Shown here: piece after piece, positions 1 through 30,145 of the stretch
How positions within the stretch are numbered: position 1 is the stretch's first letter
Layout of the letters: each line of letters opens with the position of its first letter
Assembly (NCBI GenBank): GCA_937928685.1
Contig: CALGJU010000106.1
Location: 1 to 55,550, forward strand
Length of the DNA: 55,550 nucleotides
Origin: an uncultured Granulosicoccaceae bacterium
GTDB taxonomy: Bacteria; Pseudomonadota; Gammaproteobacteria; Granulosicoccales; Granulosicoccaceae
Direction of reading: 5' to 3'
The notes under the pieces: model-generated
Seen by the model: the letters and a program-made list of their open reading frames with translations, nothing else
Databases searched by the model: none
Told to the model about the DNA's origin: nothing
Made by a program: the position numbers and the translations under genes

Positions 1-304
1 AACGTGGAGACGAGTCTAACGTGGTACATATTTTATAGTGTACGAGTTGCGGAGCTAACGCTTGCAATGATTTAAAAACTGATGGCAGTTGCTTGTCCAT
101 CCACTCAGGCGTTTGCGCGCGTGCTGTTGATGCAACACCAATGGCCTGTAAGTCCGGGTAGCGTGAAAGTTGTGTCTTTGTTGGCGCGTCCAGAAATAGC
201 ATGGCGTTAACGCCTGCAAATGACAGTACTTCCAGTACCGCAGCCGCACCGGTAAAGTCATCGGCGTACCAGGTGAGAAGCAGATTGCTGGATCGTGAAG
301 TCAA
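1..304 (-). CDS. oiaK: Four-carbon acid sugar kinase, N-terminal part (DUF1537/OtnK family; 3-oxo-isoapionate kinase candidate), runs off window
   Basis: The minus strand is open from position 304 to the window edge and encodes the N-terminal nucleotide of a DUF1537 sugar acid kinase. The diagnostic motif WYADDFTGA lies near residue 12 and HYKICTTLDSSP near residue 90; both are typical of this family's N-terminal domain. The chosen start is TTG at 304-302, preceded on the coding strand by AGGGA about eight bases upstream; an in-frame TAG just before it excludes a longer protein, and no in-frame ATG fits as well. Family members phosphorylate C4/C5 sugar acids such as 3-oxo-tetronate or 3-oxo-isoapionate. 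The neighbouring apionate oxidoisomerase, apiose dehydrogenase and apionate lactonase genes make 3-oxo-isoapionate the most likely substrate, which is inference. The C-terminal ATP-binding domain is outside the window. Confidence 0.82.
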   Translation of the reverse strand, partial: MTSRSSNLLLTWYADDFTGAAAVLEVLSFAGVNAMLFLDAPTKTQLSRYPDLQAIGVASTARAQTPEWMDKQLPSVFKSLQALAPQLVHYKICTTLDSSPR

Positions 305-445
305 TGTAATTCCCTATGCATGTAGTGTTGCTTCACGAAACATTCTACGATCTTTTCAGGTAAGTGAATAACTTAAGATGCGCCTTCGTCAGGGGAGCTT
401 TGAACGCTTCACAAAGCGCTATTGCGCAAATGCCGTAACTTTTGT

Positions 446-480
446 TTGATCGATATGTATACTCAGTATGTCATTATAAT
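446..480 (+). promoter_or_regulatory. Candidate promoter and operator of the apnO-like gene
   Basis: A perfect TATAAT hexamer at 475-480 lies 33 bp before the start codon at 513. Immediately upstream, 459-469 reads ATACTCAGTAT, a palindrome with a central C, and it sits where a -35/-10 spacer would be, so a repressor bound there could block transcription. No convincing -35 hexamer at the right spacing is visible. The region also serves the divergent kinase gene starting at 304. The regulator itself is not in the window. Confidence 0.4.
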
Positions 481-512
481 AGTTAGCAATTCAACCAGAA
501 CGGACCTTACGA

Positions 513-1340
513 ATGACAAAAATAGCTTTGTTTGGCGCAGGCGGTAAAATGGGCTTACGTCTATCGCGTAATCTCGACGCCTCTGATTTTGAAACTGCTC
601 ATGTAGAGGTATCCGAAGAAGGACGTAAGCAACTCAAAGCCCAATTGGGCCATAGTTGCCAGGAGCCAGAGGCAGCGCTTGATGGAGCGAAAGTTATTGT
701 GCTTGCCGTGCCGGATACTGTTATCGGCAAAGTGGCCGCGTCCATCATTGATATGGTGCCATCGGGTGCGATGGTGATGTGTTTGGATGCAGCCGCACCT
801 TTTGCAGGGCATCTTCCAAAGCGTGATGACATCACTTACTTCGTGAGTCACCCCTGTCACCCGCCTATCTTTAATGATGAAAATACCACAGAAGAGCGTA
901 AAGACTATTTCGGTGGTGTTGCCGCGACACAGGGTATTGTTAATGCACTGATGCAGGGGCCGGATGAAGATTACGCGTTGGGTGAAAAAGTAGGTAAGAC
1001 AATCTTTGCGCCGGTAGCCAGATCGCATCGCGTAACCGTAGAACAGATGGCTTTACTGGAACCGGGTTTATCAGAAACCGTTTGTGCATCATTGCTGGAC
1101 ATAATGAGAGAAGCCATGGATGAAGTAGTAGAGCGTGGTGTTCCAAAAGAGGCAGCGAGGGATTTCCTGCTTGGACACATGAACATACTTGGGGCCGTTA
1201 TCTTCGGTCAGGTTGACGGTGTGTTCTCCGATGCTTGCAACAAAGCCATCGAATTTGGCAAACCTGTGTTGATGAAAGACGATTGGAAACGTGTTTTTGA
1301 ACCTGATGAGATTGCTGCCAGTATAGAACGGATAACGTAG
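513..1340 (+). CDS. apnO: D-apionate oxidoisomerase candidate (6-phosphogluconate dehydrogenase-like NAD-binding protein)
   Basis: This 275-residue soluble protein begins with a Rossmann fold: the dinucleotide-binding loop GAGGKMG is at residues 8-14, and VIVLAVPDTVIGKVA follows the expected beta strand. A SHPCHPP segment near residue 112 and an alpha-helical C-terminal half match the 6-phosphogluconate-dehydrogenase-like family that includes D-apionate oxidoisomerase ApnO. ApnO oxidises and isomerises D-apionate to 3-oxo-isoapionate with NAD+. It is divergent from the DUF1537 kinase gene, which would act on its product, and lies beside apiose dehydrogenase and apionate lactonase genes. No strong Shine-Dalgarno sequence precedes the ATG. 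The alternative is a related tetronate/threonate-type dehydrogenase; the lactonase neighbour argues for the apiose route. Confidence 0.75.
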   Translation: MTKIALFGAGGKMGLRLSRNLDASDFETAHVEVSEEGRKQLKAQLGHSCQEPEAALDGAKVIVLAVPDTVIGKVAASIIDMVPSGAMVMCLDAAAPFAGHLPKRDDITYFVSHPCHPPIFNDENTTEERKDYFGGVAATQGIVNALMQGPDEDYALGEKVGKTIFAPVARSHRVTVEQMALLEPGLSETVCASLLDIMREAMDEVVERGVPKEAARDFLLGHMNILGAVIFGQVDGVFSDACNKAIEFGKPVLMKDDWKRVFEPDEIAASIERIT

Positions 1341-1442
1341 GTGATGTGCTGTTGCCATCAGAGGTGAAAACTGAACAGGAAGTTGGATGGGGGATAGGCG
1401 AGAAGAGGTCGGGCAGGGATTTGTAGGTTTGTCCGCTTGCCG

Positions 1443-1766
1443 CTTGCCACTCGCTCACGCGTCGGGTTTCCCGAGCGATCTTGAGACATGCTCGTCAATG
1501 GAAGCCCGACGCGTGAGCGAGTGGACCAGATCAAGCTCGTTTTGCACATACCACGGAGCTTAGCCATAACGACGTGACGTACAGCACTTGCCACACGCTG
1601 ACGCGTCGGGTTTCCTGAGCGACCTTGCGACATGCACGTCAATGGAAGCCCGACGCGTGAGCGAGTGGACTATCTCAAGCTCGTTTTACACATACCGCGG
1701 AGCTTGGCAATAACGACGTGACGTACAGCACTTGCCACTCGCTGACGCGTCGGGTTTCCCGAGGGT
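1443..1766. repeat. 144-bp tandem repeat carrying inverted pairs of the dispersed GACGCGTCGGG core
   Basis: The 426-bp gap between two convergent genes is mostly a tandem repeat with a 144-bp period: units start at 1443, 1587 and 1731, the last cut short next to the apsD-like stop codon. Each full unit contains the core in both orientations: arm one at 1447-1471 (and 1591-1615), arm two at 1500-1524 (and 1644-1668). The arms of unit one are complementary at 24 of 25 positions and enclose a 28-base loop, so a transcript from either side would fold into strong hairpins. It could act as a bidirectional terminator for the converging genes, which is inference. Bases 1341-1442 hold nothing recognisable. 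Confidence 0.9.
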
Positions 1767-2783
1767 TCATAGGTCGGAAACTTCAATCATTTTACCGTGA
1801 AATGCTGACAGGTATGCCGCCTCTACCAATGCCAGGGTCTTTAGATTGTCAGCGCCGGAGGTCTGCGGTTCTGTTCCGGTTGCAATGCAATTAACAAAAT
1901 GCTGCTGAATAGTCTGCACGCTCTGCTGAATGTTGTGCCACGGTTTTTCAGCCCAGGAGAGCAACGGGGGAGAAACATCTTTGCGTGTTTCGTTCGTGTT
2001 TTGTACGGTCAGCTGGTAGCCAGCGTCAAGCCGAAGCGTGCCATTTGTACCGTCAATCTCAAGCAGTGATTGCGGAAACGTCTCCGGTAGGCGTTTGGTT
2101 GCATAGGAGCAATCAACCACGCTTGTGACACCACTATGGTGTTGCAGCAGCATGGTGGCGACGTCTTCACCTTGTATGTTTGCATTGATACGTTTTGTTG
2201 TTGCAGTAAGCTGCTTTACATCGCCTGCAAAGGCGCGTGCAATATCAAGAATGTGAATGCCGAGATCTTCGATAATAAATCGTTTGCCCTCTGCTAGATA
2301 TGGTTGTCCGCTAAATACATCATAGCCGGACCGAAAGCTGACACGACAAAAGAACGGATCACCTATGGCACCGGATTTGACCGCCTCAAGGGCGGCCTGA
2401 ATAGGTGACTGCCAACGGAAATTTTCATGCACCATGAGGGTTTTACCGGCTGTTTTCGCGGCCTCGACCATAGCGCGTGCGTCTGCCATGTTGCCGGCAA
2501 ATGGTTTCTGGCAAATGATATGAACCCCTGCCGCAGCCGCCATCTCAACCAGCGGGCGATGACTGCTCACCGTAGTCGCAATATCAACGAAATCAAACCC
2601 GCCTTGTGCAAGCATGTCACCGGCATCTGTGTAAGTTCGTGTTACATTGAAAGAGTGTGCTGTGGCCTGTAAGCGGTCATCGTCGGTATCACATAGTGCG
2701 ACTATGTCTACACCCTCAATATCACGCCAGGCGTGCATGTGGTTTTGCGCAAAAAAACCGCAGCCTATAAGAGCGCCTTTCAT
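1767..2783 (-). CDS. apsD: D-apiose dehydrogenase candidate (Gfo/Idh/MocA family NAD-dependent oxidoreductase)
   Basis: A 338-residue Gfo/Idh/MocA oxidoreductase. The N-terminal Rossmann domain carries the nucleotide loop ALIGCGFFAQNH near residues 4-15; the family's catalytic lysine motif (usually EKP) appears as QKPF with Lys93, and the second conserved motif is EDLGIHILDIA with His177. The C-terminal alpha/beta domain is complete. In the described D-apiose pathway a member of this family oxidises D-apiose to D-apionolactone with NAD+, the substrate for the lactonase encoded at 3035-5008. Its start lies about 250 bp from the lactonase gene on the opposite strand. The coding-strand sequence before the ATG reads AGGGAGGCAACC, a strong ribosome-binding site, so the start is secure. 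Family-level assignment is certain; the substrate is inferred from context. Confidence 0.72.
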   Translation of the reverse strand: MKGALIGCGFFAQNHMHAWRDIEGVDIVALCDTDDDRLQATAHSFNVTRTYTDAGDMLAQGGFDFVDIATTVSSHRPLVEMAAAAGVHIICQKPFAGNMADARAMVEAAKTAGKTLMVHENFRWQSPIQAALEAVKSGAIGDPFFCRVSFRSGYDVFSGQPYLAEGKRFIIEDLGIHILDIARAFAGDVKQLTATTKRINANIQGEDVATMLLQHHSGVTSVVDCSYATKRLPETFPQSLLEIDGTNGTLRLDAGYQLTVQNTNETRKDVSPPLLSWAEKPWHNIQQSVQTIQQHFVNCIATGTEPQTSGADNLKTLALVEAAYLSAFHGKMIEVSDL

Positions 2784-2876
2784 GGTTGCCTCCCTAAATA
2801 CTCATTGCTATGTAAACGCTCAAAAGCGTAGCATGAATAATAACTCGACAAATGCATAGCTCGCATTGTTCGTAAG

Positions 2877-3013
2877 GTTGTGAGCATATCGCGCAGGGAA
2901 TTGATTTTACAGTGAATTTCTTCTCGCGCTGAATACTTAATTAATATTTACAAGAGAAATAATTGCCGTGGAATCAAGGATCAGGGGAGATGCCGTTAAT
3001 TTTATGAATGATG
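2877..3013 (+). mobile_element. Diverged partial copy of a MITE-like palindromic element
   Basis: This stretch aligns along almost its whole length with the reverse complement of 10433-10573. Shared blocks include TTGATTT.ACAGTG, CTTCT.GCG, GAATACTTA, ATATTT.CAA, GTGGAATCAA.GATCA and GAGATGCCGT.A. The outer terminal inverted repeat seen in the copy at 10420-10595 is not recognisable here, so this copy is partial or eroded. It fills most of the gap between the divergent apsD-like and apnL-like genes and ends about 20 bp before the lactonase start, so it may supply promoter or operator sequence. The inner half-sites TTGATT.CAC.G are inverted about each other. Confidence 0.65.
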
Positions 3014-3034
3014 CCAAATGGAGGTTTGCCAGTG

Positions 3035-5008
3035 ATGACGAATAATACTGCCGATGTAATAAAACTCTATGGCACAGACGAACCTGTGCAAGCTATGCGT
3101 ACTTTAACGGCGGGCCCGCTTACCTGTCAGTTTGATCACGGAGCGCTGCGGTTCATCAAAATCTATGGCAAAGAATCGATAAGAAATATTGCTTTCGTGA
3201 TACGCAACAAAGACTGGGGCACCTACCTGCCCACACTAAGCAATGTGCTCGTTGAACAGAACGAAGATTCTTTCATTGTTGCATTCGATGCGGTGTGTAT
3301 CGACGAACAGCAGGAGATTTTCTGTCAATCGAAAATCATCGGAACCGCGGATGGAGTGTTGTCTTTTACTACTGACTACACGGCAGTCACTGATTTTATA
3401 ACTAATCGTACAGGGTTTGTGGTTTTGCACCCATTGACGGGCGTTGCAGGGCACCCTGTTACGGTGACGCGCCCTAACGGTGATACTGAGCAAGCAGAGT
3501 TTCCCGAGCTTGTTGACCCGATACAGCCGATCAAGAACATAAGTGCACTAACTCACGAGGTATTACCGGGTATAAGTGTCTGTTGTGACATGACAGGTGA
3601 TACCTTTGAAATGGAAGACCAACGTCAATGGAATGATGCGTCGTATAAAACTTATGTACGGCCTCTGTCGAAGCCCTGGCCCTATACCATTGCAAAGTCG
3701 GAGTCGCATCAGCAGTGCATAAAGCTGACCGTATTGGAAAGCACGGGGCAGGCTGCAAGTTCGACATTGAGTGAAACTTCAAAGCCCTGTGTGGTAACCG
3801 TAAGTAAGATTGACAATCCGGCAGCTATGCCGTCTATCGGGATTGGTCTGGAGCCACAACATTTAGCAGGGGCAAAAGCCTGCCAAAACCTGATCAGAAA
3901 GTTGGCGCCACAGCAATTGGTGGTATGGCATGAATTGGGCAAGCACAACGGTGAGCACCTCAGACAAGCCGCTGCTCTGAGTCAGGATACAGATATAAAA
4001 TTCGAACTGCAGGCAGTCATACCTGATAACGATTATACATCGGAGATTAGTGAGCTGGCCGATCAGTGCCGTGACGCAGGCCTGACACTCAGTGCTATTA
4101 ATGTCGCACCGGCAATCTATTTGAAGTCGCTTATGCCTGGTCCGTCATGGCCTGAAGTCACCGATCTTGCAGATCTCTATGAAGAGGTACGTAGACAATT
4201 CCCGGACGTTGAAGTGGGAGGCGGAATGTTATCTTTTTTTACTGAGCTTAACCGGCATCGGCCGCCCACCGATCAGCTTGATTTTATATCTCACGCCAGT
4301 AATACAATTACACACGCCAGTGATGATGTTTCGGTGACTGAAAATCTTGAAGCGATTCCTTATATAACAAAAACCTGTCGGGCTTTTGCGAACGGTAAGC
4401 CGTATCACGTCGGACCAAGCTCAATCGCAATGCGCTTTAACCCTTACGGTTCCAAAACCATGGATAACCCGGATAATAAACGTATCGCTATGGCGCGTAT
4501 GGATCCACGTCAACGGGGCCTTGTGAATAGCGCATGGACGACCGGATATATCGCACATATGGTTCGTGGCGGGATCAGCTGCATTAACCTTCATGCACCG
4601 ACAGGTGAGTTTGGGGTTTTTAATTATCAGGAGGCTTGGCCCAGACCCGGTTTCGATGATTCATCAAAACAGGTCTTTCCGGTTTATCATGTGCTAGCGG
4701 GGTTCTCACAAGCGGCCGGAAAGCCGCAACTGTTAACACATTCAACAATGAGTCGCGAAGTCGAAGCGGTTGCTTACGAAGACGATGGCAACTGGGTGGT
4801 TTGGATCGCTAATCTTACTTGCGATTTACGCAGTGTTCAGGTGTCTGGTCTTCACAACAGTGGTGCGAAAGTGGCGACGTTGTCAGTCAATACTTTCGAT
4901 CAGTGCACAGATGACAGTGAGGGTTTCGAACGTGCAACGGCAGAAGCTTTTTTGCCTGAGCTTGAGCTTGGGCCTTATGCTGTGGTTAGAATCACTACAC
5001 TTGCGTAA
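3035..5008 (+). CDS. apnL: D-apionate lactonase candidate
   Basis: A large soluble protein of about 657 residues that I recognise as D-apionate lactonase (ApnL), which hydrolyses D-apionolactone to D-apionate. Distinctive segments are GFVVLHPLTGVAG (about residue 130), FPELVDPIQPIKNISALTHE, FEMEDQRQWNDASYKTYVRP (about residue 195) and a TIM-barrel-like middle part with SFFTELNRHRP and HASNTITHASDDVSV, followed by a beta-rich C-terminal domain. There is no signal peptide. I chose ATG 3035 because GGAGG at 3020-3024 lies ten bases upstream; GTG 3032 is possible, and the two upstream ATGs at 3008 and 3011 fall inside the repeat-like element and lack a ribosome site. Size and motifs fit the family; adjacent apiose genes support the role. 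Confidence 0.78.
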   Translation: MTNNTADVIKLYGTDEPVQAMRTLTAGPLTCQFDHGALRFIKIYGKESIRNIAFVIRNKDWGTYLPTLSNVLVEQNEDSFIVAFDAVCIDEQQEIFCQSKIIGTADGVLSFTTDYTAVTDFITNRTGFVVLHPLTGVAGHPVTVTRPNGDTEQAEFPELVDPIQPIKNISALTHEVLPGISVCCDMTGDTFEMEDQRQWNDASYKTYVRPLSKPWPYTIAKSESHQQCIKLTVLESTGQAASSTLSETSKPCVVTVSKIDNPAAMPSIGIGLEPQHLAGAKACQNLIRKLAPQQLVVWHELGKHNGEHLRQAAALSQDTDIKFELQAVIPDNDYTSEISELADQCRDAGLTLSAINVAPAIYLKSLMPGPSWPEVTDLADLYEEVRRQFPDVEVGGGMLSFFTELNRHRPPTDQLDFISHASNTITHASDDVSVTENLEAIPYITKTCRAFANGKPYHVGPSSIAMRFNPYGSKTMDNPDNKRIAMARMDPRQRGLVNSAWTTGYIAHMVRGGISCINLHAPTGEFGVFNYQEAWPRPGFDDSSKQVFPVYHVLAGFSQAAGKPQLLTHSTMSREVEAVAYEDDGNWVVWIANLTCDLRSVQVSGLHNSGAKVATLSVNTFDQCTDDSEGFERATAEAFLPELELGPYAVVRITTLA

Positions 5009-5129
5009 ATAGACTGGCTAAGCAAAGGGGCGAGCGGTGTAAGGCATATCCTGATAGCGGTTACTGACAGTCGCGCAGTTCAGGACGTCCCGTTGTAAAT
5101 TAGTAAGCATTGACGTAATACAAGACAAT

Positions 5130-5708
5130 TTAGCGCCGAAGCACGCGGTAGTTATGACCCCCGTGATAGATCACAAGAATTGTGCCTTTAACGGCAACCT
5201 GTTTAAACAGGTTGGTCATGTGGGTTATCTGATTTGGCCAGGGGTAGGCGAAAATTAAATCTACTTCTGCGTAGTTAATCAAAGAGGTTGGATTATCTTT
5301 AGGGTAGATACTGCCATGGATAAAGGTGGCTGGTATGGCATATTCCTGTGATACCTCACGGGCCAGATCTATTAAGTCTTCCTCGATTTCAATACCGGTT
5401 GCCGCCATACCCATGAACGAGGCGAGCAGCGTAACAAGGCCGGTCCCGGAACCCCATTCACAGAAGACAGGTGTACGACCGCGCAAGGTTTGTTTGGCTA
5501 CCGAGTTTAGCAACTGCCAGCTAATCCTGCCGTCGGCGGCAACAAACTCCGGGATACCGCCATCCTCTTCACTATGTGAGCTGAATTCATCGCCCGCTTC
5601 ATTGCAGTGTTGAATAAGGAGGTTCACTTTAGCCGGCAGGTTAAAGTGCTCTAATGATAGATCGATCTTTTCCATGGTTTTATTTATTCTGCATTGTAAG
5701 TGAGCCAT
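5130..5708 (-). CDS. Small SAM-dependent methyltransferase-fold protein
   Basis: A 192-residue protein with a class I methyltransferase core. Motif I appears as FCEWGSGTGLVTLLAS around residue 83, followed by ATGIEIEEDLIDLAREVS, where the acidic residue after the second strand would bind the ribose of S-adenosylmethionine, and later VDLIFAYPWPNQ at the usual motif IV site. The substrate cannot be told from sequence; no substrate-recognition domain is attached. Two starts are possible, ATG 5708 or ATG 5675, neither with a clear ribosome-binding site. It faces away from the GFA-kinase gene at 5904 and converges with the lactonase gene; there is no sign that it belongs to either pathway. Confidence 0.75.
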   Translation of the reverse strand: MAHLQCRINKTMEKIDLSLEHFNLPAKVNLLIQHCNEAGDEFSSHSEEDGGIPEFVAADGRISWQLLNSVAKQTLRGRTPVFCEWGSGTGLVTLLASFMGMAATGIEIEEDLIDLAREVSQEYAIPATFIHGSIYPKDNPTSLINYAEVDLIFAYPWPNQITHMTNLFKQVAVKGTILVIYHGGHNYRVLRR

Positions 5709-5903
5709 TTCTTTATTCGTAGCATGGGTTTTGAGGTCGACACATGCACAGTCTGCCGCGCTCTTACGCGCGGGTTCCTCGTGTGTATATCATTAGTTGA
5801 CCACCGATTGGTGCAGATGCGTTGTGAAACGAAAGGGTATATCATCATTAGTATATGGTGTGCATGGAATGCGGCACTGCAGAGATCATAGGAGGATACA
5901 TGC

Positions 5904-7655
5904 ATGAATGTCACAGGTAGCTGCCATTGTAGAGATCTCACTTATCGGGCTACGCTCGATCCCTCGCGCATTGTAATTTGCCACTGCACCGACTGTCAGA
6001 AGTTATCCGGTACAGCGTTTCGCACCATTGGCATGATGAAGGATACTGACTTCGAACTGTTAAGCGGTTCACCCACTATCTATTTGAAGACGGCTGCAAG
6101 CGGTCGTCTGCGCGAGCAGGCATTCTGTTCGCACTGTGGTAGCCAGCTTTACTCGAGTTCGACGGGAAGCGGCCCTCGCGACATCGGTTTGCGACTGGGA
6201 ACGCTCGACGAACGTATAGATGTTGTTCCGAAGCTACAGATCTGGACACGCTCTATGCAAGCCTGGTGTCAGGGTTTGAATGAACTTGTCCCTGTCACCT
6301 ACGGAGAGCATTTCGCCGCTACGTCGCCAGCTCCGGAAGACGGGATCCAGTGCCCGGTGCTCACCAATCAGGTCAGCAGTGAGAACGCCGTCGATTTCGT
6401 ATTGGCGAACTACGCACTAGGTCTAAGAGACAATCGAGAGGCCTATGATCAGGTGCTGCTGCGTATTGACAAGACCAAACTGATAGAAGAGTTGATAGAT
6501 CAACGGGATCGCGCCGAGGCAGCAGTGATCGAGAAAAACCGTTTTCTTGCCGCTGCCAGTCATGATCTCCGTCAGCCGTTGCATGCAATCGGGTTATTTA
6601 TGGGGTCGCTTTCTTCCCGGCCGCTGGACGAAGCTTCGCAGCGTATATTGGATCTCGTGAAGAAATCTCTCGATACCTTGGGGGAATCTTTCAACGGACT
6701 ACTGGAGCTCTCACGACTGGATGCGAACATTGTAGAAAGCCATCCCGTAAACATTCCACTGGAGGGTTTTTTCGCGCGGCTGCAGATGGAATTCATGGCA
6801 CTGGCGGACGACAAGGGGCTTGTGTTTCGGATCGAGCAGGGTGATGTAGATGAAGTGTATGCCGATGAACAACTGCTTTTTAGAGTAGTTCAGAACCTCG
6901 CTGGAAACGCTGTAAAGTATACCGATCAGGGGTCGGTAGAAATTGTCGCATCTCGATCGGCACCGGATCAGGTATGTATCGCCGTAACCGATACGGGTTG
7001 TGGCATAGAAGAAGATAAGCAATTTGCGATCTTTGACGAGTACCTGCAACTTGCTGATGGTGAGCATGATCGTCGACGAGGTATGGGCCTGGGCCTCGCA
7101 ATTGTGCGACGGCTTTGCGACCTCATGAATCTATCCATCCGGGTGGAGTCTTCGCCTGGCAAAGGATCGACGTTCACGGTGTATGTACCGTGTGCTGTGA
7201 CCACTGCTTTTGAGATAAAGCCTGGTCCGTTCCAGCATGACGAAGTACCAGTGGATGTTGTGCGTCGTCGTATCATCGTAATCGATGACGAGAGAGATAT
7301 CCTCGTTGGCATGCGAACTATCCTTGCCTCCTGGGGCCACGAGGTACTGCTCTCCAGTACCGGCGAGTCCATGCTAGAAGCCCTGAAGGATTTTGGCATT
7401 CCGGATCTGGTGATCGCAGATTTCCGACTTGGCGCTGGAATTAGTGGGCTGGATCTAATCGATAACATACGCAAAGCTTGCGGAAAAATAGTGCCATCTA
7501 TCCTGGTGACGGGTGATACATCACCAGATCGCTTAAAAGAGGCCAAGCTGGCATCAGTTTATGTCCTGCATAAACCTGTCCGCCCTGCGATACTGAAAGA
7601 GACTATCATTGAGGCGTGTAAGCGGGCTGTGATTCAGAGACAGTTTACAACTTAA
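5904..7655 (+). CDS. GFA (CENP-V/formaldehyde-activating-like) domain fused to a hybrid histidine kinase
   Basis: A 583-residue fusion. Residues 1-130 are a GFA domain with all seven zinc-binding cysteines of the family: C7, C9, C26, C28, C31, C75 and C78. Residues 195-215 form a short coiled coil, then a HisKA domain with phosphoacceptor His220 (ASHDLRQPLHA), and a HATPase_c domain at about 320-430 with N-box QNLAGNAVKYT, G1 box DTGCG and G2 box GMGLGLAI. Residues 455-575 are a receiver domain with acidic pocket DDE near 461, phosphoacceptor Asp506 and Lys557. No transmembrane segment is seen, so it is cytoplasmic. The kinase part resembles the NahK-type orphan hybrid kinases. No PAS or other sensor is present, so the zinc-binding GFA domain may be the input module (inference). 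An AGGAGG-like site precedes the ATG. No partner response regulator is adjacent. Confidence 0.88.
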   Translation: MNVTGSCHCRDLTYRATLDPSRIVICHCTDCQKLSGTAFRTIGMMKDTDFELLSGSPTIYLKTAASGRLREQAFCSHCGSQLYSSSTGSGPRDIGLRLGTLDERIDVVPKLQIWTRSMQAWCQGLNELVPVTYGEHFAATSPAPEDGIQCPVLTNQVSSENAVDFVLANYALGLRDNREAYDQVLLRIDKTKLIEELIDQRDRAEAAVIEKNRFLAAASHDLRQPLHAIGLFMGSLSSRPLDEASQRILDLVKKSLDTLGESFNGLLELSRLDANIVESHPVNIPLEGFFARLQMEFMALADDKGLVFRIEQGDVDEVYADEQLLFRVVQNLAGNAVKYTDQGSVEIVASRSAPDQVCIAVTDTGCGIEEDKQFAIFDEYLQLADGEHDRRRGMGLGLAIVRRLCDLMNLSIRVESSPGKGSTFTVYVPCAVTTAFEIKPGPFQHDEVPVDVVRRRIIVIDDERDILVGMRTILASWGHEVLLSSTGESMLEALKDFGIPDLVIADFRLGAGISGLDLIDNIRKACGKIVPSILVTGDTSPDRLKEAKLASVYVLHKPVRPAILKETIIEACKRAVIQRQFTT

Positions 7656-7682
7656 TAACCGATAGCTGATGTCGTGTGCTTG

Positions 7683-8438
7683 TTAGCGACGAGGTGCCAG
7701 CGGGCTTTGAAGAAAAAACTGTGTCATTAGTTTATACAGATCAGGATAGGCTTCGATCAGTAAGTCAGGGGTTTCAAAGAACACTTCGCTTAAAACAGCA
7801 AAAAACTCTGCGGGGTTTGTCGCACCATAACGATCGATACCGGGTTTCGGGTTAAGCTGGAAATCCTCAAACGCATTGCCCATCTGTTTCGTCCAGGTGG
7901 ATTGCTCCATGCCCTTCTGCATCGGGGGAAATCCGTTGGCGCGACCGTTTAACATGTCAAGTTTGTGGACAAATTCGTGAATCACTACGTTGTGTCCATC
8001 ACGAATACCTGCATGCTCGGTATCTTTCCACGAAAGTATCACCGGACCTCTGAGCCAGGCCTCACCACTGCGATGGTTATTTTTTGTGTGCGTCACGCCG
8101 AATGCATCTACCTCTGAGGTTGTGCTGGTGAAGCCAGCCGGGTAGACGATGATTGAAGACCAGCCGCTGTACCAGTCAAGATTAAGATTCAGAATTGGCA
8201 GGCAAGCTTGCAGTGCAATTGATTGACGTACGGCATCAGTTATTTCGAAACCATGTGCACCACTGATGGTTTTATAGTTCAGAAACAGTGTGGCCAGTTT
8301 GAATAGCTTACTCTGGTCATCTTCATCTAGTTGATCCAGAACAGGGAGTTCTGACTGTGCCCGCTGCCACTGTTGCAGGGTAATCTGGCTTTTGGCCAGA
8401 ATGCGTTGTTCACGCCATCGTTTAAATTTACTAAACAT
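7683..8438 (-). CDS. mtfA: MtfA-type zinc metallopeptidase
   Basis: A 251-residue cytoplasmic protein of the MtfA (DUF980) family. The zinc site is intact: HEFVH at residues 154-158, followed by the family-typical LDMLNGRANG, with the downstream glutamate helix in NPAEFFAVLSEVFFETP. The segment WLRGPVILSWKD is also characteristic. In Escherichia coli MtfA binds the repressor Mlc and so links to glucose phosphotransferase expression, and it has aminopeptidase activity; whether a Mlc partner exists here is unknown. Length is close to the E. coli protein. The gene converges with the GFA-kinase gene, 27 bp apart, and its upstream side faces the repeat array at 8590-9068. Confidence 0.9.
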   Translation of the reverse strand: MFSKFKRWREQRILAKSQITLQQWQRAQSELPVLDQLDEDDQSKLFKLATLFLNYKTISGAHGFEITDAVRQSIALQACLPILNLNLDWYSGWSSIIVYPAGFTSTTSEVDAFGVTHTKNNHRSGEAWLRGPVILSWKDTEHAGIRDGHNVVIHEFVHKLDMLNGRANGFPPMQKGMEQSTWTKQMGNAFEDFQLNPKPGIDRYGATNPAEFFAVLSEVFFETPDLLIEAYPDLYKLMTQFFLQSPLAPRR

Positions 8439-8589
8439 ATTATGACAAAGGCCATGTTGGTAGCTGGGTGGAATGGTAATGAACGTTAATGCTGGGGGCT
8501 ATCTCTGGCAGTTCAACGTGGGTGGATAGTTTTATGCTGGAGTTTCAGTGGTTGTGGTCACTTGGCGATCGAGCCGGACGTGTTGGGTT

Positions 8590-9068
8590 GATCCGCTCGC
8601 TTATGCGTCGGGTTTGGTTGATGTGCTGGCGTGCTGGTCGGTGACGCGTCGGGTTTCTTTGATGTGCTGGCGTGCTGGTCGCTGACGCGTCGGGTTTCGT
8701 TGACGTGTTGGCGCGTGCCACTCGCTAACGCGTCGGGTTTCCTTGATGTGCTGGCGTGCCACTCGCTGACGCGTCGGGTTTCGTTGACGTGCTGGCGTGC
8801 CACTCGCTGACGCGTCGGGTTTCCTTGATGTGCTGGCGTGCTGGTCGCTGACGCGTCGCGGTTTCCTTGACGTGTTGGCGTGCCACTCGCTGACGCGTCG
8901 GGTTTCGTTGACGTGCTGGCGTGCCGCTCGCTGACGCGTCGGGTTTCCTTGACGTGCTGCTGTGCCACTCGCTGACGCGTCGGGTTTCTTGACGTGCTGG
9001 TGTGCCACTCGCTGACGCGTCGGGTTTCGTTGACGTGTTGGCGTGCCGCTCGCTTATGTCGGGTTTGC
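8590..9068. repeat. Tandem array of about twelve 41-bp units of the GACGCGTCGGG family
   Basis: The 695-bp gap between two genes is dominated by about twelve head-to-tail units with a 41-bp period. Each has a core close to CACTCGCTGACGCGTCGGG, then TTTC and a linker of the kind TTGACGTGCTGGCGTGC. Units differ mainly at CCACTCGC (also CCGCTCGC or TGGTCGCT) and at GTTGACG versus CTTGATG. One unit has a one-base insertion (near 8857) and the last is degenerate. Stop codons are rare in the unit, so long reading frames run across the array, but they are by-products of the repeat. Bases 8439-8589 and 9069-9133 show nothing else. Confidence 0.95.
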
Positions 9069-9133
9069 TTCGCTCACTGACAGTTCCACAACGGTGATTG
9101 TAGAAGCGGCCTCTGCACGCTTTGGTTTTCGGA

Positions 9134-10303
9134 TTAAGCTGGCATTGCCTGCTCAACCAACTGTACCCAGTAAGAGCAGCCGTGCGGTATGGCTTCGTCG
9201 TTAAAGTCATATTCCGGATGATGAAGTAGGGCGGTGTCACCATTGCCCATAAAAATAAAAGCACCGGGTCTGGCTTCCAGCATGTATGAGAAATCTTCAG
9301 CGCCCATCACCGGGGCTATTTCTGCATCGACATTGTCAGGTCCTGAGACCTTTTCGGCAATACCTGCAGCGAACGCTGTCTGTTTGTCTGAGTTAACTGT
9401 CACCGGGTAGCCGTAGTGATACTCAAATTCAGCGGTGGCATCCATAGACTTCGCAGTGTGCTCCACCAATGTTTCCATTCGCTCTTTTATTTGATCGCGA
9501 ACCTCAGAGGATAATGTTCGAACCGTGCCTTTGATGCTGACGGTTTGCGGGATGACATTGTATGAGATGGTATCGGTATTAAACGACGTCACGGAAATTA
9601 CGGCGTTCTCGAGTGGATCAACATTGCGTGACACTATGGACTGTAAAGCGAGTGTGATTTGCGATGCGATCACTGTCGGGTCAATGCCGCGATGAGGGGC
9701 TGCCGCATGACCGCCTTTACCGGTTACCACAATATCAAACTGATCTGCTGCAGCCATAATGGAGCCGGGTCGTATAGCGAATTTGCCTACGTCCATCCCG
9801 GGCCAGTTATGCATGCCGTAGACTTCTTTGATGCCAAAGCGGTCCATCATGCCGTCTTTAACCATTTCATTGCCGCCACCGCCGCCTTCTTCCGCTGGTT
9901 GAAAAATCACGGCGACTTTGCCACTGAAATTGCGTGTTTCACTGAGATACTTGGCCGCACCAAGCAACATGGCAGTGTGGCCGTCGTGCCCGCAGGCGTG
10001 CATTTTGCCGTCAGTGGTAGACGCATGAGGTACACCACTGGCCTCATGGATTGGCAATGCGTCCATATCTGCACGCAAACCAATCACATTACCTGAGCCG
10101 TTGTGCTTGCCATTTATAATGCCCACCACACCGGTTTTGCCAATACCTTCTACCACCTCATCAACACCGAATTCGCGCAGTTTGGCAGCGACTACGCCCG
10201 CGGTACGGTGCACGTCAAAAAGCAGCTCAGGGTTTTGGTGCAAATCGCGGCGCCACTCTGTGATTTCTGGCAGTAGATCGGCAAATCGATTGACTAACGG
10301 CAT
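9134..10303 (-). CDS. M20 family metallopeptidase/amidohydrolase (hippurate hydrolase-like)
   Basis: A 389-residue cytoplasmic enzyme of the M20D group, which includes hippurate hydrolase, N-acyl-L-amino acid amidohydrolase and IAA-amino acid hydrolases. The metal-binding motif MHACGHDGHTAMLLGAAKYL lies near residue 98, the catalytic and metal glutamates in FQPAEEGGGG near 135, a further His in YGMHNWPG, and the C-terminal metal ligand region in PVMGAEDFSYMLEARPG and the final His in LHHPEYDFND. The dimerisation (lid) domain lies between about 185 and 290. It would hydrolyse the amide bond of an N-acylated amino acid; the exact substrate is unknown. Coding-strand AGGATCC sits shortly before the ATG. 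It is monocistronic and ends near the repeat array. Confidence 0.88.
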   Translation of the reverse strand: MPLVNRFADLLPEITEWRRDLHQNPELLFDVHRTAGVVAAKLREFGVDEVVEGIGKTGVVGIINGKHNGSGNVIGLRADMDALPIHEASGVPHASTTDGKMHACGHDGHTAMLLGAAKYLSETRNFSGKVAVIFQPAEEGGGGGNEMVKDGMMDRFGIKEVYGMHNWPGMDVGKFAIRPGSIMAAADQFDIVVTGKGGHAAAPHRGIDPTVIASQITLALQSIVSRNVDPLENAVISVTSFNTDTISYNVIPQTVSIKGTVRTLSSEVRDQIKERMETLVEHTAKSMDATAEFEYHYGYPVTVNSDKQTAFAAGIAEKVSGPDNVDAEIAPVMGAEDFSYMLEARPGAFIFMGNGDTALLHHPEYDFNDEAIPHGCSYWVQLVEQAMPA

Positions 10304-10419
10304 GGTTGGATCCTGATGACTTTAAAAGACAGCATGCCAATTGCGCTCAGCTTGCGCAAGCAGGGATTGCTTTATAAGTCGCATGCCGGGTCGACCCTGG
10401 CTGTTGTGATCGTTATGAT

Positions 10420-10595
10420 GCTCCTAGCCCGGATTATTCATGATGATGACGGCATCTCACTTGATCTTTGATTCCACAGCGAATTTTTTCTTTTTGCAAA
10501 TATCAATAAGTATTCGACGCAAGAAGAAAATCCACTGTGAAATCAAATCTCTACGCGATACGCTCGCCACATCATGAATAATCCGGACTAGGAGC
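10420..10595. mobile_element. 176-bp MITE-like palindromic element with 4-bp target duplication
   Basis: The element begins GCTCCTAGCCCGGATTATTC and ends with the complementary sequence at 10571-10595; the 25-bp ends differ at one position. Inside, a second inverted pair (about 10469-10499 and 10521-10549) carries TTTGATTCCACAG and its complement, so the whole unit is an imperfect palindrome. TGAT at 10416-10419 and again at 10596-10599 flanks it exactly, as a 4-bp target site duplication would. No gene fits inside, so movement would need a transposase from elsewhere. The end motif GGATTATTCATGA recalls some IS families such as IS1380, but that is only memory. The right end is 47 bp from the next start codon. 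A related partial copy lies at 2877-3013. Confidence 0.8.
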
Positions 10596-10642
10596 TGATC
10601 TGCGGTACGGCGGAAATCATGGCTCTGTGCAGAGGAAATCAA

Positions 10643-11755
10643 ATGGCCACAATCGAACAAGTCGAATTGCTGATGGTAGATTTGCCCCCCAAGGTAAAAC
10701 GCACCGATGCCATACAGTCGTTTGATAGCCAGCAAACCCCGATGGTGCTTATCACTGATACTGATGGCTTCAAGGGAACAGGTTACAGCTACACCATCGG
10801 TCAGGGCGGTGGGGCGATTATGTCGCTGCTTAAAGAAACCCTCGCACCGCGCCTCCTTGGCGCCGAGGGAGATTCAATAGAAAAAATTTGGCGCGATCTA
10901 TTGTTCTCCACTCATGCGACCAGTGTGGGCGCCATTACCTCACTGGCTTTGGCAGCCATTGATATAGCGTTGTGGGATCTCAAAGCCCGTCGCGCAAACC
11001 TGCCATTGTACAAAACCGCTGGTGGGGCAAAAGACAGCGTGCCGCTATACACCACAGAGGGCGGCTGGCTGCATATACCAGTGGAAGATCTGGTCGCTGA
11101 TGCGGTGAATGCAAAAGCCGCGGGATTCTCAGGCTCTAAGATCAAAATAGGTAAACGCCATCTGGCAGAAGACCGCGAGCGATTGAAAGCGGTGCGTGAA
11201 GCGGTAGGTAATGATTACGAGATTATGGTTGATGCGAATCAAGGCTTTAGTTTGTCGGAGTCTATTCGACGCGCTGCGATGCTTGAACGTTTCGATATCG
11301 GTTGGTTTGAAGAGCCCATGCCGGCTGATGATGTGGCAGCCCATGCGCAGCTGGCAAAACGTACCAGTGTGCCTATCGCCGTAGGGGAGAGCTTGTATTC
11401 GATCTCTCAGTTTAAGGATTATCTGCATGCCGGGGCTGCGTCAATAGTACAGGTTGATGTTGCACGCATTGGTGGTATCACACCGTGGTTGAAAGTCGCC
11501 CATATGGCGGAGGCGTATAATGTATCCGTTTGCCCGCACTTTCTTATGGAGCTTCATGTAAGTCTGGTATGTGCGGTACCCAACGCTCCATGGCTTGAGT
11601 ACATTCCGCAGCTTGATGACATCACTACCGATCAGATGGCAGTGGAGCAGGGAGTGGCGTTGCCGAGCAAGCTGCCGGGCATAGGCATTCAGTGGGATCA
11701 CGATGAAATTGATCAACGGCGCATGGAGCCGTTTGATTTTGCTTTATCCAGATAA
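10643..11755 (+). CDS. Mandelate racemase/muconate lactonizing enzyme family protein (sugar acid dehydratase-like, enolase superfamily)
   Basis: A 370-residue enolase-superfamily enzyme. The N-terminal capping domain spans residues 1-120. The barrel carries the KxK catalytic pair at K166 and K168, metal ligands D197, E223 and E249, and the His/Asp dyad with D272 and H299 in VSVCPHF. This is the mandelate racemase subgroup pattern, which includes acid sugar dehydratases such as L-talarate/galactarate dehydratase. The reaction would be abstraction of a proton alpha to a carboxylate, followed by dehydration or racemisation; the substrate is not determined. I use ATG 10643, preceded by AGAGGAAATC, rather than the ATG at 10619 that lacks a ribosome site. 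It is monocistronic, and its upstream region is occupied by the MITE-like element. Confidence 0.85.
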   Translation: MATIEQVELLMVDLPPKVKRTDAIQSFDSQQTPMVLITDTDGFKGTGYSYTIGQGGGAIMSLLKETLAPRLLGAEGDSIEKIWRDLLFSTHATSVGAITSLALAAIDIALWDLKARRANLPLYKTAGGAKDSVPLYTTEGGWLHIPVEDLVADAVNAKAAGFSGSKIKIGKRHLAEDRERLKAVREAVGNDYEIMVDANQGFSLSESIRRAAMLERFDIGWFEEPMPADDVAAHAQLAKRTSVPIAVGESLYSISQFKDYLHAGAASIVQVDVARIGGITPWLKVAHMAEAYNVSVCPHFLMELHVSLVCAVPNAPWLEYIPQLDDITTDQMAVEQGVALPSKLPGIGIQWDHDEIDQRRMEPFDFALSR

Positions 11756-11809
11756 CCCGCTTTAACTGAATGATCCCCGGAGCCTGCCCAAGCATTCGTG
11801 TAAGGGCGC

Positions 11810-11828
11810 AGAAGCGCAATGCGCTTCT
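11810..11828. terminator. Hairpin between convergent genes, candidate bidirectional terminator
   Basis: AGAAGCGCA and its exact complement flank a single A, giving a nine-base-pair perfect palindrome in the 93-bp gap between the convergent genes ending at 11755 and 11849. There is no T-run on either side, so it may stabilise 3' ends rather than terminate on its own. Confidence 0.5.
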
Positions 11829-11848
11829 ACCGAATTAGTATCAAGCCT

Positions 11849-13666
11849 CTACTGATTTTTAACAAGCTCAGAGACCACATGGCAAAATTGCATAGGTCGT
11901 CCGATGTGATACCCCTGCAACAAGTCGCAATTTACATGGGACAGAAATTCAGCCTGCGCATAATTCTCTACGCCTTCAGCCACCACCTGCATCCCCATTT
12001 CATGGGCGACACAGATGATTGCTTTGACTATTGAATTATCTTCCTGATTTTCAGGGATGCCGCGAACAAAGGATCTGTCGATTTTTATACGCGAAAGTGG
12101 CAACTCACGTAAACGGCTAAATGATGAGTAGCCAGTGCCAAAATCGTCTATGGAAAGTTCGATACCTTCGTCGCGTAACTCACGTAAAACCTTAATGCTG
12201 CGAGCCGTGTTGTCTAACAGCGCAGACTCGGTGAGCTCAAGCTCGAGTGCGTGACCGGGAGTGCCAGTTTTTTCTAAAATAGCTGCGATTTTTTCTTGTA
12301 AGTTTCCGGCTGTGAACTGCTTGGCAGATACATTAACACTCATACGGATGTTATCAATGCCGGCTTCGCGGAGTTGTTTAAGCTTCAAGCAGGTCTCAGT
12401 TAATATCCACTCTCCCAGTGGTTCGATTATCCCCGTTTCCTCTGCAATCTGGATAAAAGAATCAGGCCTGAGTACGCCTTTCTCCGGGTGATTCCAGCGA
12501 ATCAACGCTTCGTAACCGACAACTCTTTGTTGGCACAAATCAAGTTGCGGTTGGAAGTACAGTTCGAACTGCGATTCCCTTAAGGCGATACGTAAATCAC
12601 TCTCAGTTTTAAACCTTTTGCGCTGAGCAGAATTTAATTCAGCGGTAAAAAACTGCACGTAGTTTGATCCGCGTGTTTTAGCTCGATCCATTGCAACATG
12701 TGAAAAGCGGATCATCTCCTCGTTATTGATCGAGTCTTCCGGGTAAATACTTACTCCAATACTTGCTGCGGTGCAGATTTCGTGAGAGCCGACATCGTAG
12801 GGGAGTGCCAGCGCTTTAATTATTTTATCTGCCATGTGAGAGACTTCTTCAGATGACTCTATCTGTTCCAGTACTACCGTAAATTCATCGTCACCAAGTC
12901 GTGCCACTGTGTCGCAGTCTCTGACGGTATGTTGTAATCGCTGTGCTACTTCTTTAAGCAGTAAATCGCCAATTTCATGGCCGAGTGATTCATTGACGTT
13001 TTTAAATCGATTAATGTCCAGCAACAGCAGTGCTACTTTCTTACCGGTGTGTCGGGCTCTCAGCAGGGCGTTGTCAAATCTGGCGTTGAAAAATAATCGG
13101 TTCGGGAGGCTGGTAAGCGAATCATGATGAGTGGTGTGCTGCAGGCTATCGTTTGCCTTGCGCAGCTGATCTTCCGCCGCTTTGTGTTCACTGACATCCA
13201 TCATAGCGGTTTGACAGAGACAGGTATCACTGCCAAGCACGTGCACCGGAGTTGAGTACAACATGACGGGTGTCGATTTTCCGTCAGTGGTTATCGTGGT
13301 GCGGAGTGTTGCTTTGTTTCCAGCGACTACTGCGTTTATATGAGTTTGGATTCTATCGTGGTCATCAGACCTTATGTATGCGGAGAGCGGTTGATCACGA
13401 TCATGCTCGTGATGGTTGCCCAATATATTGCCGCCGGTGGTATTCGCCTCAAGAATATTCATGAAGCGATCAACGGTTAGGTAACCAATCGGGGCGGCGT
13501 CAAATTGCGCACGATACCGTTCGTTGTCAGCACGCAGACGTTGCAATTCGGTTCTGTAGGTGTTGAGTTGAGATTCGTGTGTTTGAACGGGTGACACTGC
13601 AGCTTTTATGGCGGTGTCAATCGAAACCATTTTTTCCGTCTGACGTTCCTGCACTTCGCTATTCAT
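11849..13666 (-). CDS. PAS-GGDEF-EAL cyclic-di-GMP protein with altered GGDEF site
   Basis: A 605-residue soluble protein. Residues 20-55 form a likely coiled coil, a PAS-like domain follows (RAQFDAAPIGYLTVD near 52, to about 160), then a diguanylate cyclase domain (about 175-340) and an EAL phosphodiesterase domain (about 355-600). The cyclase signature is GDDEF at 258-262 instead of GGDEF, so synthase activity may be lost. The EAL site looks active: EAL at 386-388, NVSAKQF, the DDFGTGYSS loop and KIDRSFV are present. It most likely degrades cyclic-di-GMP, with the degenerate GGDEF domain acting as a GTP-sensing regulator, as in other hybrid proteins (inference). It lacks membrane segments; the PAS domain would bind a small ligand or cofactor that cannot be named. 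It is monocistronic. Confidence 0.9.
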   Translation of the reverse strand: MNSEVQERQTEKMVSIDTAIKAAVSPVQTHESQLNTYRTELQRLRADNERYRAQFDAAPIGYLTVDRFMNILEANTTGGNILGNHHEHDRDQPLSAYIRSDDHDRIQTHINAVVAGNKATLRTTITTDGKSTPVMLYSTPVHVLGSDTCLCQTAMMDVSEHKAAEDQLRKANDSLQHTTHHDSLTSLPNRLFFNARFDNALLRARHTGKKVALLLLDINRFKNVNESLGHEIGDLLLKEVAQRLQHTVRDCDTVARLGDDEFTVVLEQIESSEEVSHMADKIIKALALPYDVGSHEICTAASIGVSIYPEDSINNEEMIRFSHVAMDRAKTRGSNYVQFFTAELNSAQRKRFKTESDLRIALRESQFELYFQPQLDLCQQRVVGYEALIRWNHPEKGVLRPDSFIQIAEETGIIEPLGEWILTETCLKLKQLREAGIDNIRMSVNVSAKQFTAGNLQEKIAAILEKTGTPGHALELELTESALLDNTARSIKVLRELRDEGIELSIDDFGTGYSSFSRLRELPLSRIKIDRSFVRGIPENQEDNSIVKAIICVAHEMGMQVVAEGVENYAQAEFLSHVNCDLLQGYHIGRPMQFCHVVSELVKNQ

Positions 13667-13990
13667 CGGGCTGTGGCCAGTAGTGAAGCTTTGCGGTGGA
13701 TTGTATTTGTACTAAGTGTAACGCTGTAATAATAAGACCAATAGGCACTTCTCTTACCTCATTGAGACTTCGGGATACTGTTCTCTCGCTTCCTGCTACT
13801 TCCGGTAAGCTGGTTTTGCGCCAACGCAATGTAGTCCGAGAACCATCGATTTCTATAACAGCGATTTATATAGCTCATATCTGTGGTTAGTGGGAATACT
13901 TTTTTATGATTTTCGCAATACTTCTCGTCAATTCACTGGCGGGCAATGTGGGTCAACTGGCGTAAAGTTGTAGGTGGGACGAGCTGGCAT
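13667..13990. other. Intergenic stretch without recognisable genes
   Basis: Between the GGDEF/EAL start and the repeat copy at 13991 I see no supported gene or RNA. It should contain the promoter of the leftward GGDEF/EAL gene, but no clear promoter hexamers stand out. Confidence 0.5.
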
Positions 13991-29818: not shown

Positions 29819-29830
29819 CAGAACCCCACA

Positions 29831-30145
29831 TCAGGAAGCCCGACGCGTAAGCAAGCGGACCAATTCGCACGTCAGAAAGCCCGACGCGTAAGCGAGCGGA
29901 CCAATTCCACATCAGAAAAACCGACGCGTAAGCGAGCGGACCAATTCCACATCAGAAAACCCGACGCGTAAGCAAGCGGACCAAGTCCACATCAGGAAGC
30001 CCGACGCGTAAGCGAGCGGACCAATTCGCACGTCAGGAAGCCCGACGCGTAAGCAAGCGGATCAATACCCACATCAGGAAGCCCGAAGCTTAAGCGAGCG
30101 GATCACAAGTGCCACACACCAGGAAACCCACCTCACAAGCAAGCA
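29831..30145. repeat. Tandem array of about eight 40-41-bp units, GACGCGT family in reverse orientation
   Basis: Seven clear units and a degenerate eighth occur with spacings of 41, 40, 40, 40, 41 and 41 bp, each carrying CCCGACGCGTAAGCGAGCGG followed by ACCAATTCCACATCAG or a close variant. The core is the reverse complement of that in the 8590-9068 array. It fills most of the 573-bp gap between the metallohydrolase and the alcohol dehydrogenase genes, both rightward. The rest (30146-30391) should hold the dehydrogenase promoter; TTGCGG at 30331 and GTATAC at 30353 are weak candidate hexamers. Confidence 0.92.

Follow-up and report, generated by a model that had tools for sequence, protein, structure and literature searches.

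A GFA domain joined in frame to a hybrid histidine kinase in an uncultured Granulosicoccaceae bacterium: a candidate cytosolic signal input

Introduction

What is a GFA domain doing at the N-terminus of a histidine kinase? The question is posed by a single gene in the window (by which we mean the whole stretch of 55,550 nucleotides analysed here), contig C106 of a metagenome-assembled genome (MAG) of 4.2 Mb in 332 contigs that is 77% complete. The function of GFA proteins is itself unsettled: the founding enzyme, Gfa of Paracoccus denitrificans, was later found to bind glutathione, as a homodimer, without speeding up the formation of S-hydroxymethylglutathione that had been proposed as its reaction (PMC4682968). 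Fused to a kinase, such a domain comes with a measurable read-out, autophosphorylation, for whatever it binds. Should the fusion protein respond, the zinc beta-tent domain would join the known input modules of kinases, and the protein would unite in one chain what the pairs NosP-NahK and ErcA-ErcS divide between two. A preliminary description of this DNA had proposed that the GFA domain may sense a thiol adduct, an aldehyde or zinc, and that it would, if confirmed, be a new type of input module.

Domain architecture of the fusion protein

The features of the gene and its surroundings are collected in Table 1. The frame has no internal stop, and the gene is monocistronic, with one neighbour divergent and the other convergent. 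The Pfam GFA model scores 102.2 bits against a gathering cut-off of 24.3, the HisKA, HATPase and receiver domains follow it as first described, and no further Pfam domain, PAS included, rises above cut-off. No membrane segment is predicted either, the highest 19-residue Kyte-Doolittle mean being 1.19, and so the earlier reading of GFA as the sole recognisable input module of this protein holds. This architecture, with the residues discussed below, is not a product of chance.

Table 1. Features of the fusion gene and its flanks (positions in the window; residues of the fusion protein)
Feature	Position	Strand	Details
Methyltransferase-like gene	5127-5688		flank collinear with G007
Shine-Dalgarno AGGAGG	5890..5895	+	8 nt 5' of ATG; read from the sequence
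Fusion gene GFA-HisKA-HATPase_c-REC	5904..7655	+	583 aa; ATG 5904, stop 7655
GFA domain, residues 1-120	5904..6263	+	PF04828, residues 3-116, E 2.4e-29; fold match 8ajq, 3fac, 1x6m
Linker, residues 127-157	6282..6374	+	pLDDT <50; no homology to either parent
Signalling helix, residues 159-210	6378..6533	+	start of a continuous predicted helix (159-237); register kept in relatives
HisKA, residues 211-274	6534..6725	+	PF00512, E 1e-12; phospho-acceptor H220 = 6561-6563
HATPase_c, residues 321-430	6864..7193	+	PF02518, E 5.6e-27
Receiver domain, residues 457-568	7272..7607	+	PF00072, E 5.9e-13; phospho-acceptor D506 = 7419-7421
M90 peptidase MtfA gene	7693-8541		flank collinear with G007

The GFA domain and its relatives

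The GFA domain is complete, with all seven zinc cysteines that the preliminary description had counted. Of these, C7, C9, C75 and C78 correspond to the four-Cys site of Paracoccus Gfa (C31, C33, C99 and C102), while C26, C28 and C31 correspond to its three-Cys site (C52, C54 and C57; numbering from PMC4682968), so that the fused domain is, on its ligand cysteines, a putative binder of two zinc ions. The same seven cysteines occur in 117 of 117 GFA sequences compared. At alignment columns conserved in at least 95% of relatives the fusion protein keeps every residue (25 of 25), and relaxing the level to 90% brings in two departures, G10R and Q103E. An AlphaFold2 model of the GFA part by itself gives a confident fold, with pLDDT of 81-98 in blocks for residues 1-110, and Foldseek matches this model to the beta-tent fold of 8ajq (PA2722; E 2.5e-7) and, with probability 1.00, to 3fac (RSP_2168) and 1x6m. 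The fold and both zinc sites are common to the fused domain and Paracoccus Gfa.

The nearest relatives of the domain are stand-alone proteins of ~130 residues, at 54-55% identity (L039 and L040; up to 55% over 128 residues), and in a tree of GFA sequences it falls within a supported subfamily spread over Pseudomonadota (SH-aLRT 97). Stand-alone CENP-V/GFA proteins of Pseudomonadota (for example L039, L040 and L068) carry the same seven cysteines and invariant residues as the fusion; unlike it, they are single-domain proteins without a kinase, and Paracoccus Gfa has no kinase either.

The kinase half and its membrane-bound kin

All residues expected of a hybrid HisKA-type kinase, namely the H-box histidine, the N, G1 and G2 boxes, and the receiver aspartate and lysine, are in place, with the catalytic set intact at H220, N331/N335, D363, GMGLG 393-397, D461/D462, D506, T536 and K557. 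Of 50 columns conserved in at least 95% of related kinases, 48 are kept, the exceptions being D268E and R388H. From these residues the kinase half is predicted to be capable of both autophosphorylation and phosphotransfer.

Hybrid kinases from within the same bacterial family are its closest relatives, and one of them is encoded in the same genome (L002, 47% identity). A maximum-likelihood tree places the window kinase, on a long branch of 1.38, as sister to a Granulosicoccaceae clade of six (L002, L009, L010, L011, L013 and L016; support 96/98), to which it is 41-47% identical from residue ~166 to the end. N-terminal of the kinase these six sisters carry 4-5 hydropathy-predicted transmembrane segments, where the fusion protein has GFA. 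The homology begins at about residue 161-172, right behind the last transmembrane segment of the relatives, and the spacing from membrane exit to phospho-histidine is unchanged with respect to nearly all aligned relatives, the outliers L029 and L030 being longer by 7 residues. A model of the full-length protein shows low confidence over residues 110-158 and then a single continuous helix that runs from 159 to 237 into the dimerisation domain. The fusion point lies within or close to the linker; the latter is probably flexible, as modelled, and its low confidence may partly reflect a lack of relatives in the alignment. Since the kin of the kinase have a multi-transmembrane N-terminus and the kin of the GFA domain stand alone, a soluble GFA domain has, by comparison of the sequences, taken the place of a membrane input module.

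The kinase-receiver half also matches the NahK/ErcS model NF041832 over its whole length (301.1 bits over residues 205-569, E 1.1e-89), below the curated cut-off of 400; by this model it is related to the NahK/ErcS family and is not a member. The two have in common a soluble kinase with a cytosolic input and the HK-REC layout. They differ in where that input resides. Separate partner proteins in the cytosol signal to the related kinases, NosP conveying NO and ErcA/YiaY, a homologue of alcohol dehydrogenase, having been proposed as another such partner (PMC12997753); the GFA domain of the fusion is instead part of the same chain as the kinase. No nosP gene adjoins the fusion gene, whose neighbours encode a methyltransferase-like protein and an M90 peptidase.

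A proposed mode of action

The reading that we prefer, with a probability of roughly 0.58, is that of a real fusion in which an orphan cytosolic hybrid kinase is gated by a zinc beta-tent GFA domain. An in-frame fusion linked a stand-alone GFA protein to the cytoplasmic part of a membrane hybrid kinase related to NahK/ErcS, and the product would be a cytosolic dimer whose GFA domain is probably the signal input. Beta-tent proteins have a ligand groove in common (PMC4287342), and the second, three-Cys zinc of Gfa has been proposed to shift upon glutathione binding (PMC4682968). In the fusion protein, a small ligand may be bound in this groove beside the three-Cys zinc; occupancy, zinc loading or GFA-GFA contact could then alter the packing of the long helix, which would in turn shift the balance of autokinase and phosphatase activities. 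His220 would hand its phosphate to Asp506, from which a separate HPt protein would receive it, as HptB does from NahK; a phosphorelay by way of Asp506 is, by analogy with that family, the probable output. In this incomplete (77%) genome a search for a stand-alone HPt protein returned none, Hpt domains being seen inside long frames only. A target gene is not evident from linkage with the divergent or the convergent neighbour.

In favour of GFA gating we count the architecture, the sisterhood of the kinase to transmembrane kinases together with the descent of the GFA domain from a stand-alone subfamily, the conserved columns, the length kept between membrane exit and phospho-histidine, the GFA fold, the continuous helix, and the insertion of the gene as a unit between collinear flanks (see below). 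Precedents are the NosP and ErcA/YiaY partners (PMC12997753) and the binding of glutathione by Gfa (PMC4682968). Against it we count that the fusion is known from one MAG, that the flexible linker predicted between the two halves leaves GFA and the helix without a rigid connection, and that neither a target gene nor a stand-alone HPt protein was found. Our literature search found no description of GFA proteins as sensors.

A sharper form of this proposal, in which the beta-tent is a genuine two-component input that informs a kinase of membrane-sensor descent about glutathione or aldehyde adducts, or labile zinc, in the cytosol, we put forward only tentatively. If it were so, many orphan stand-alone GFA proteins would be ligand-binding or signalling proteins as opposed to enzymes.

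Alternative readings

The same flexible linker would suit a GFA domain that is not a sensor at all, serving instead as a tethered module for dimerisation, localisation or thiol binding, with a kinase that is constitutive or else answers to a partner protein, in the way that NahK answers to NosP. Such a role fits Paracoccus Gfa, a homodimeric protein that binds glutathione and whose function is unclear (PMC4682968), and it fits the control of related kinases by separate proteins (PMC12997753). Yet the two adjoining genes offer no candidate partner, and the pocket residues are fully conserved, beyond what dimerisation alone would demand; we regard a non-sensor role as unlikely, if the most durable of the alternatives.

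Distinctly less probable is a specific sensor of formaldehyde, by way of S-hydroxymethylglutathione, that would act as the two-component analogue of Gfa. The name of the GFA family and the presence of all seven zinc cysteines invite this reading, and a formaldehyde-responsive histidine kinase system is known in FlhS/FlhR (PMC8879981); its likeness to the fusion lies only in the proposed signal, and the review passages concerned mention no GFA domain for FlhS. On the other side, TIGR02820, which models canonical S-(hydroxymethyl)glutathione synthase (Gfa), gives the fused domain 17.7 bits, nowhere near its equivalog cut-off of 234.55. R98 of Gfa, a glutathione contact, pairs with F74 of the fusion protein in what is a weak alignment here, although the C-x-C-T motif is kept. 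Gfa itself does not catalyse the reaction (PMC4682968). Among the neighbours examined we saw no formaldehyde or glutathione gene. The sensing of an aldehyde, a thiol adduct or zinc, as at first proposed, is not established.

We think it similarly improbable that the fusion is an evolutionary accident, recent or neutral, that deprived the kinase of its signal, with a GFA domain that confers nothing. Its occurrence in one genome, and its absence from the same locus of the closest relative, G007, would be expected of such an event. Against this, the two halves have diverged far from their kin (to 47% identity for the kinase and 55% for GFA) and have nonetheless kept essentially all conserved residues, a pattern that long-term selection fits better than decay.

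Authenticity of the join

The preliminary description had named an assembly or frame error at the junction as grounds for rejecting the fusion. Several observations speak against it. The ribosome-binding site is strong; when the genome is searched with 600 bp that span the junction, only that stretch itself is returned, apart from chance matches of 15-27 bp, and a junction free of repeats leaves nothing to cause a misjoin. The genes on both sides are collinear with a single locus of G007 at 85-87% DNA identity, and past MtfA the order common to the two genomes continues with an M20 peptidase, an enolase-superfamily gene and a stretch at window 11860-13941 that is mostly a GGDEF-EAL gene. Between the methyltransferase-like and MtfA genes, G007 has a TRAP-type transporter and an AhpD-like gene (as read from its ORFs) and lacks the fusion gene, which in the window stands there alone; it therefore sits as one unit in a collinear stretch. 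In GC and third-position GC the kinase part resembles its neighbours. An assembler's joining of a GFA gene to a kinase gene, for which one might cite the fragmented metagenome assembly and the single genome in which the join is seen, is very improbable given a join that is in frame, free of repeats and flanked on both sides by one collinear locus. The fusion gene is real, though seen in one MAG only.

The spot itself is variable, window 5709-7682 lying opposite positions 6929-13436 of the G007 locus (L168). On the far side of the methyltransferase-like gene, a 666-aa ORF that adjoins it (window 3008-5008) has no Pfam match at E 0.001 and is not there in G007.

Rarity of the GFA-kinase combination

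A second frame joining GFA to a kinase was found neither in 48 genomes of the family and order, nor in 369 of the class, nor among the ~160 best GFA matches in 398 genomes of the phylum, of which 253 carry GFA, often several copies each (Pfam GFA model). The same was true of 385 genomes of another class, of 80 close GFA loci (scanned with one genome per species) and of the best 60 of 714 plasmid records; viral contigs scanned with the GFA domain and linker gave no match. These genome sets overlap and amount to ~1,130 different genomes, divergent GFA subfamilies being sampled in part. A literature search likewise found no paper on such a fusion. The concern that GFA-HisKA architectures might already be common is therefore not supported by this sample, and the fusion is apparently unique so far, a single example for which we do not claim uniqueness. 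Of the earlier suggestion of a new input module, what stands is that GFA is the sole recognisable input and that the combination was not found elsewhere; what falls short is its extent, the evidence coming from one MAG with no second species.

Other long frames that contain GFA were rejected as kinase fusions. Those of G424 (682 aa), G411 (499), G508 (413), G047 (368), G782 (314) and G308 (291) extend too far upstream, for the most part in GC-rich DNA, and the 446-aa frame of G016 is a tandem GFA-GFA protein; a GFA frame in G029 has the same length. Such tandem proteins are common in Granulosicoccaceae (L180, on contig C4 of G016), and GFA frames of ~280-310 aa occur in many genomes of the family (for example G000 C156:52540-53358).

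GFA genes near kinases in L076 and L083 were also set aside as separate genes, with an NtrB/NtrC-like pair ~2.9 kb upstream of them. In these two related MAGs (positions 3-4408 in both) a stand-alone GFA that belongs to the fusion's subfamily lies in a row of genes on one strand. Ahead of it come genes for a membrane histidine kinase and for an NtrC-like response regulator, one that resembles alpha/beta-hydrolases and one that is small and uncharacterised. Here a link of GFA to a two-component system without fusion is possible.

Tandem repeats around the locus

Related tandem repeats with units of ~40-41 bp and the core CTCGCTGACGCGTCGGGTTTC occur at window 1443-1763, 8596-9054 and 29826-30102. 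ARAGORN calls tRNAs for Gly, Trp and Arg at 8683-8983, inside the 41-bp repeat, and these calls are almost certainly false. A piece of the repeat is matched in G007 right past the methyltransferase gene (L168 6216-6273), and a possible decayed copy lies 5' of the fusion gene at 5709-5903, where a score this high was reached in 5 of 300 shuffles.
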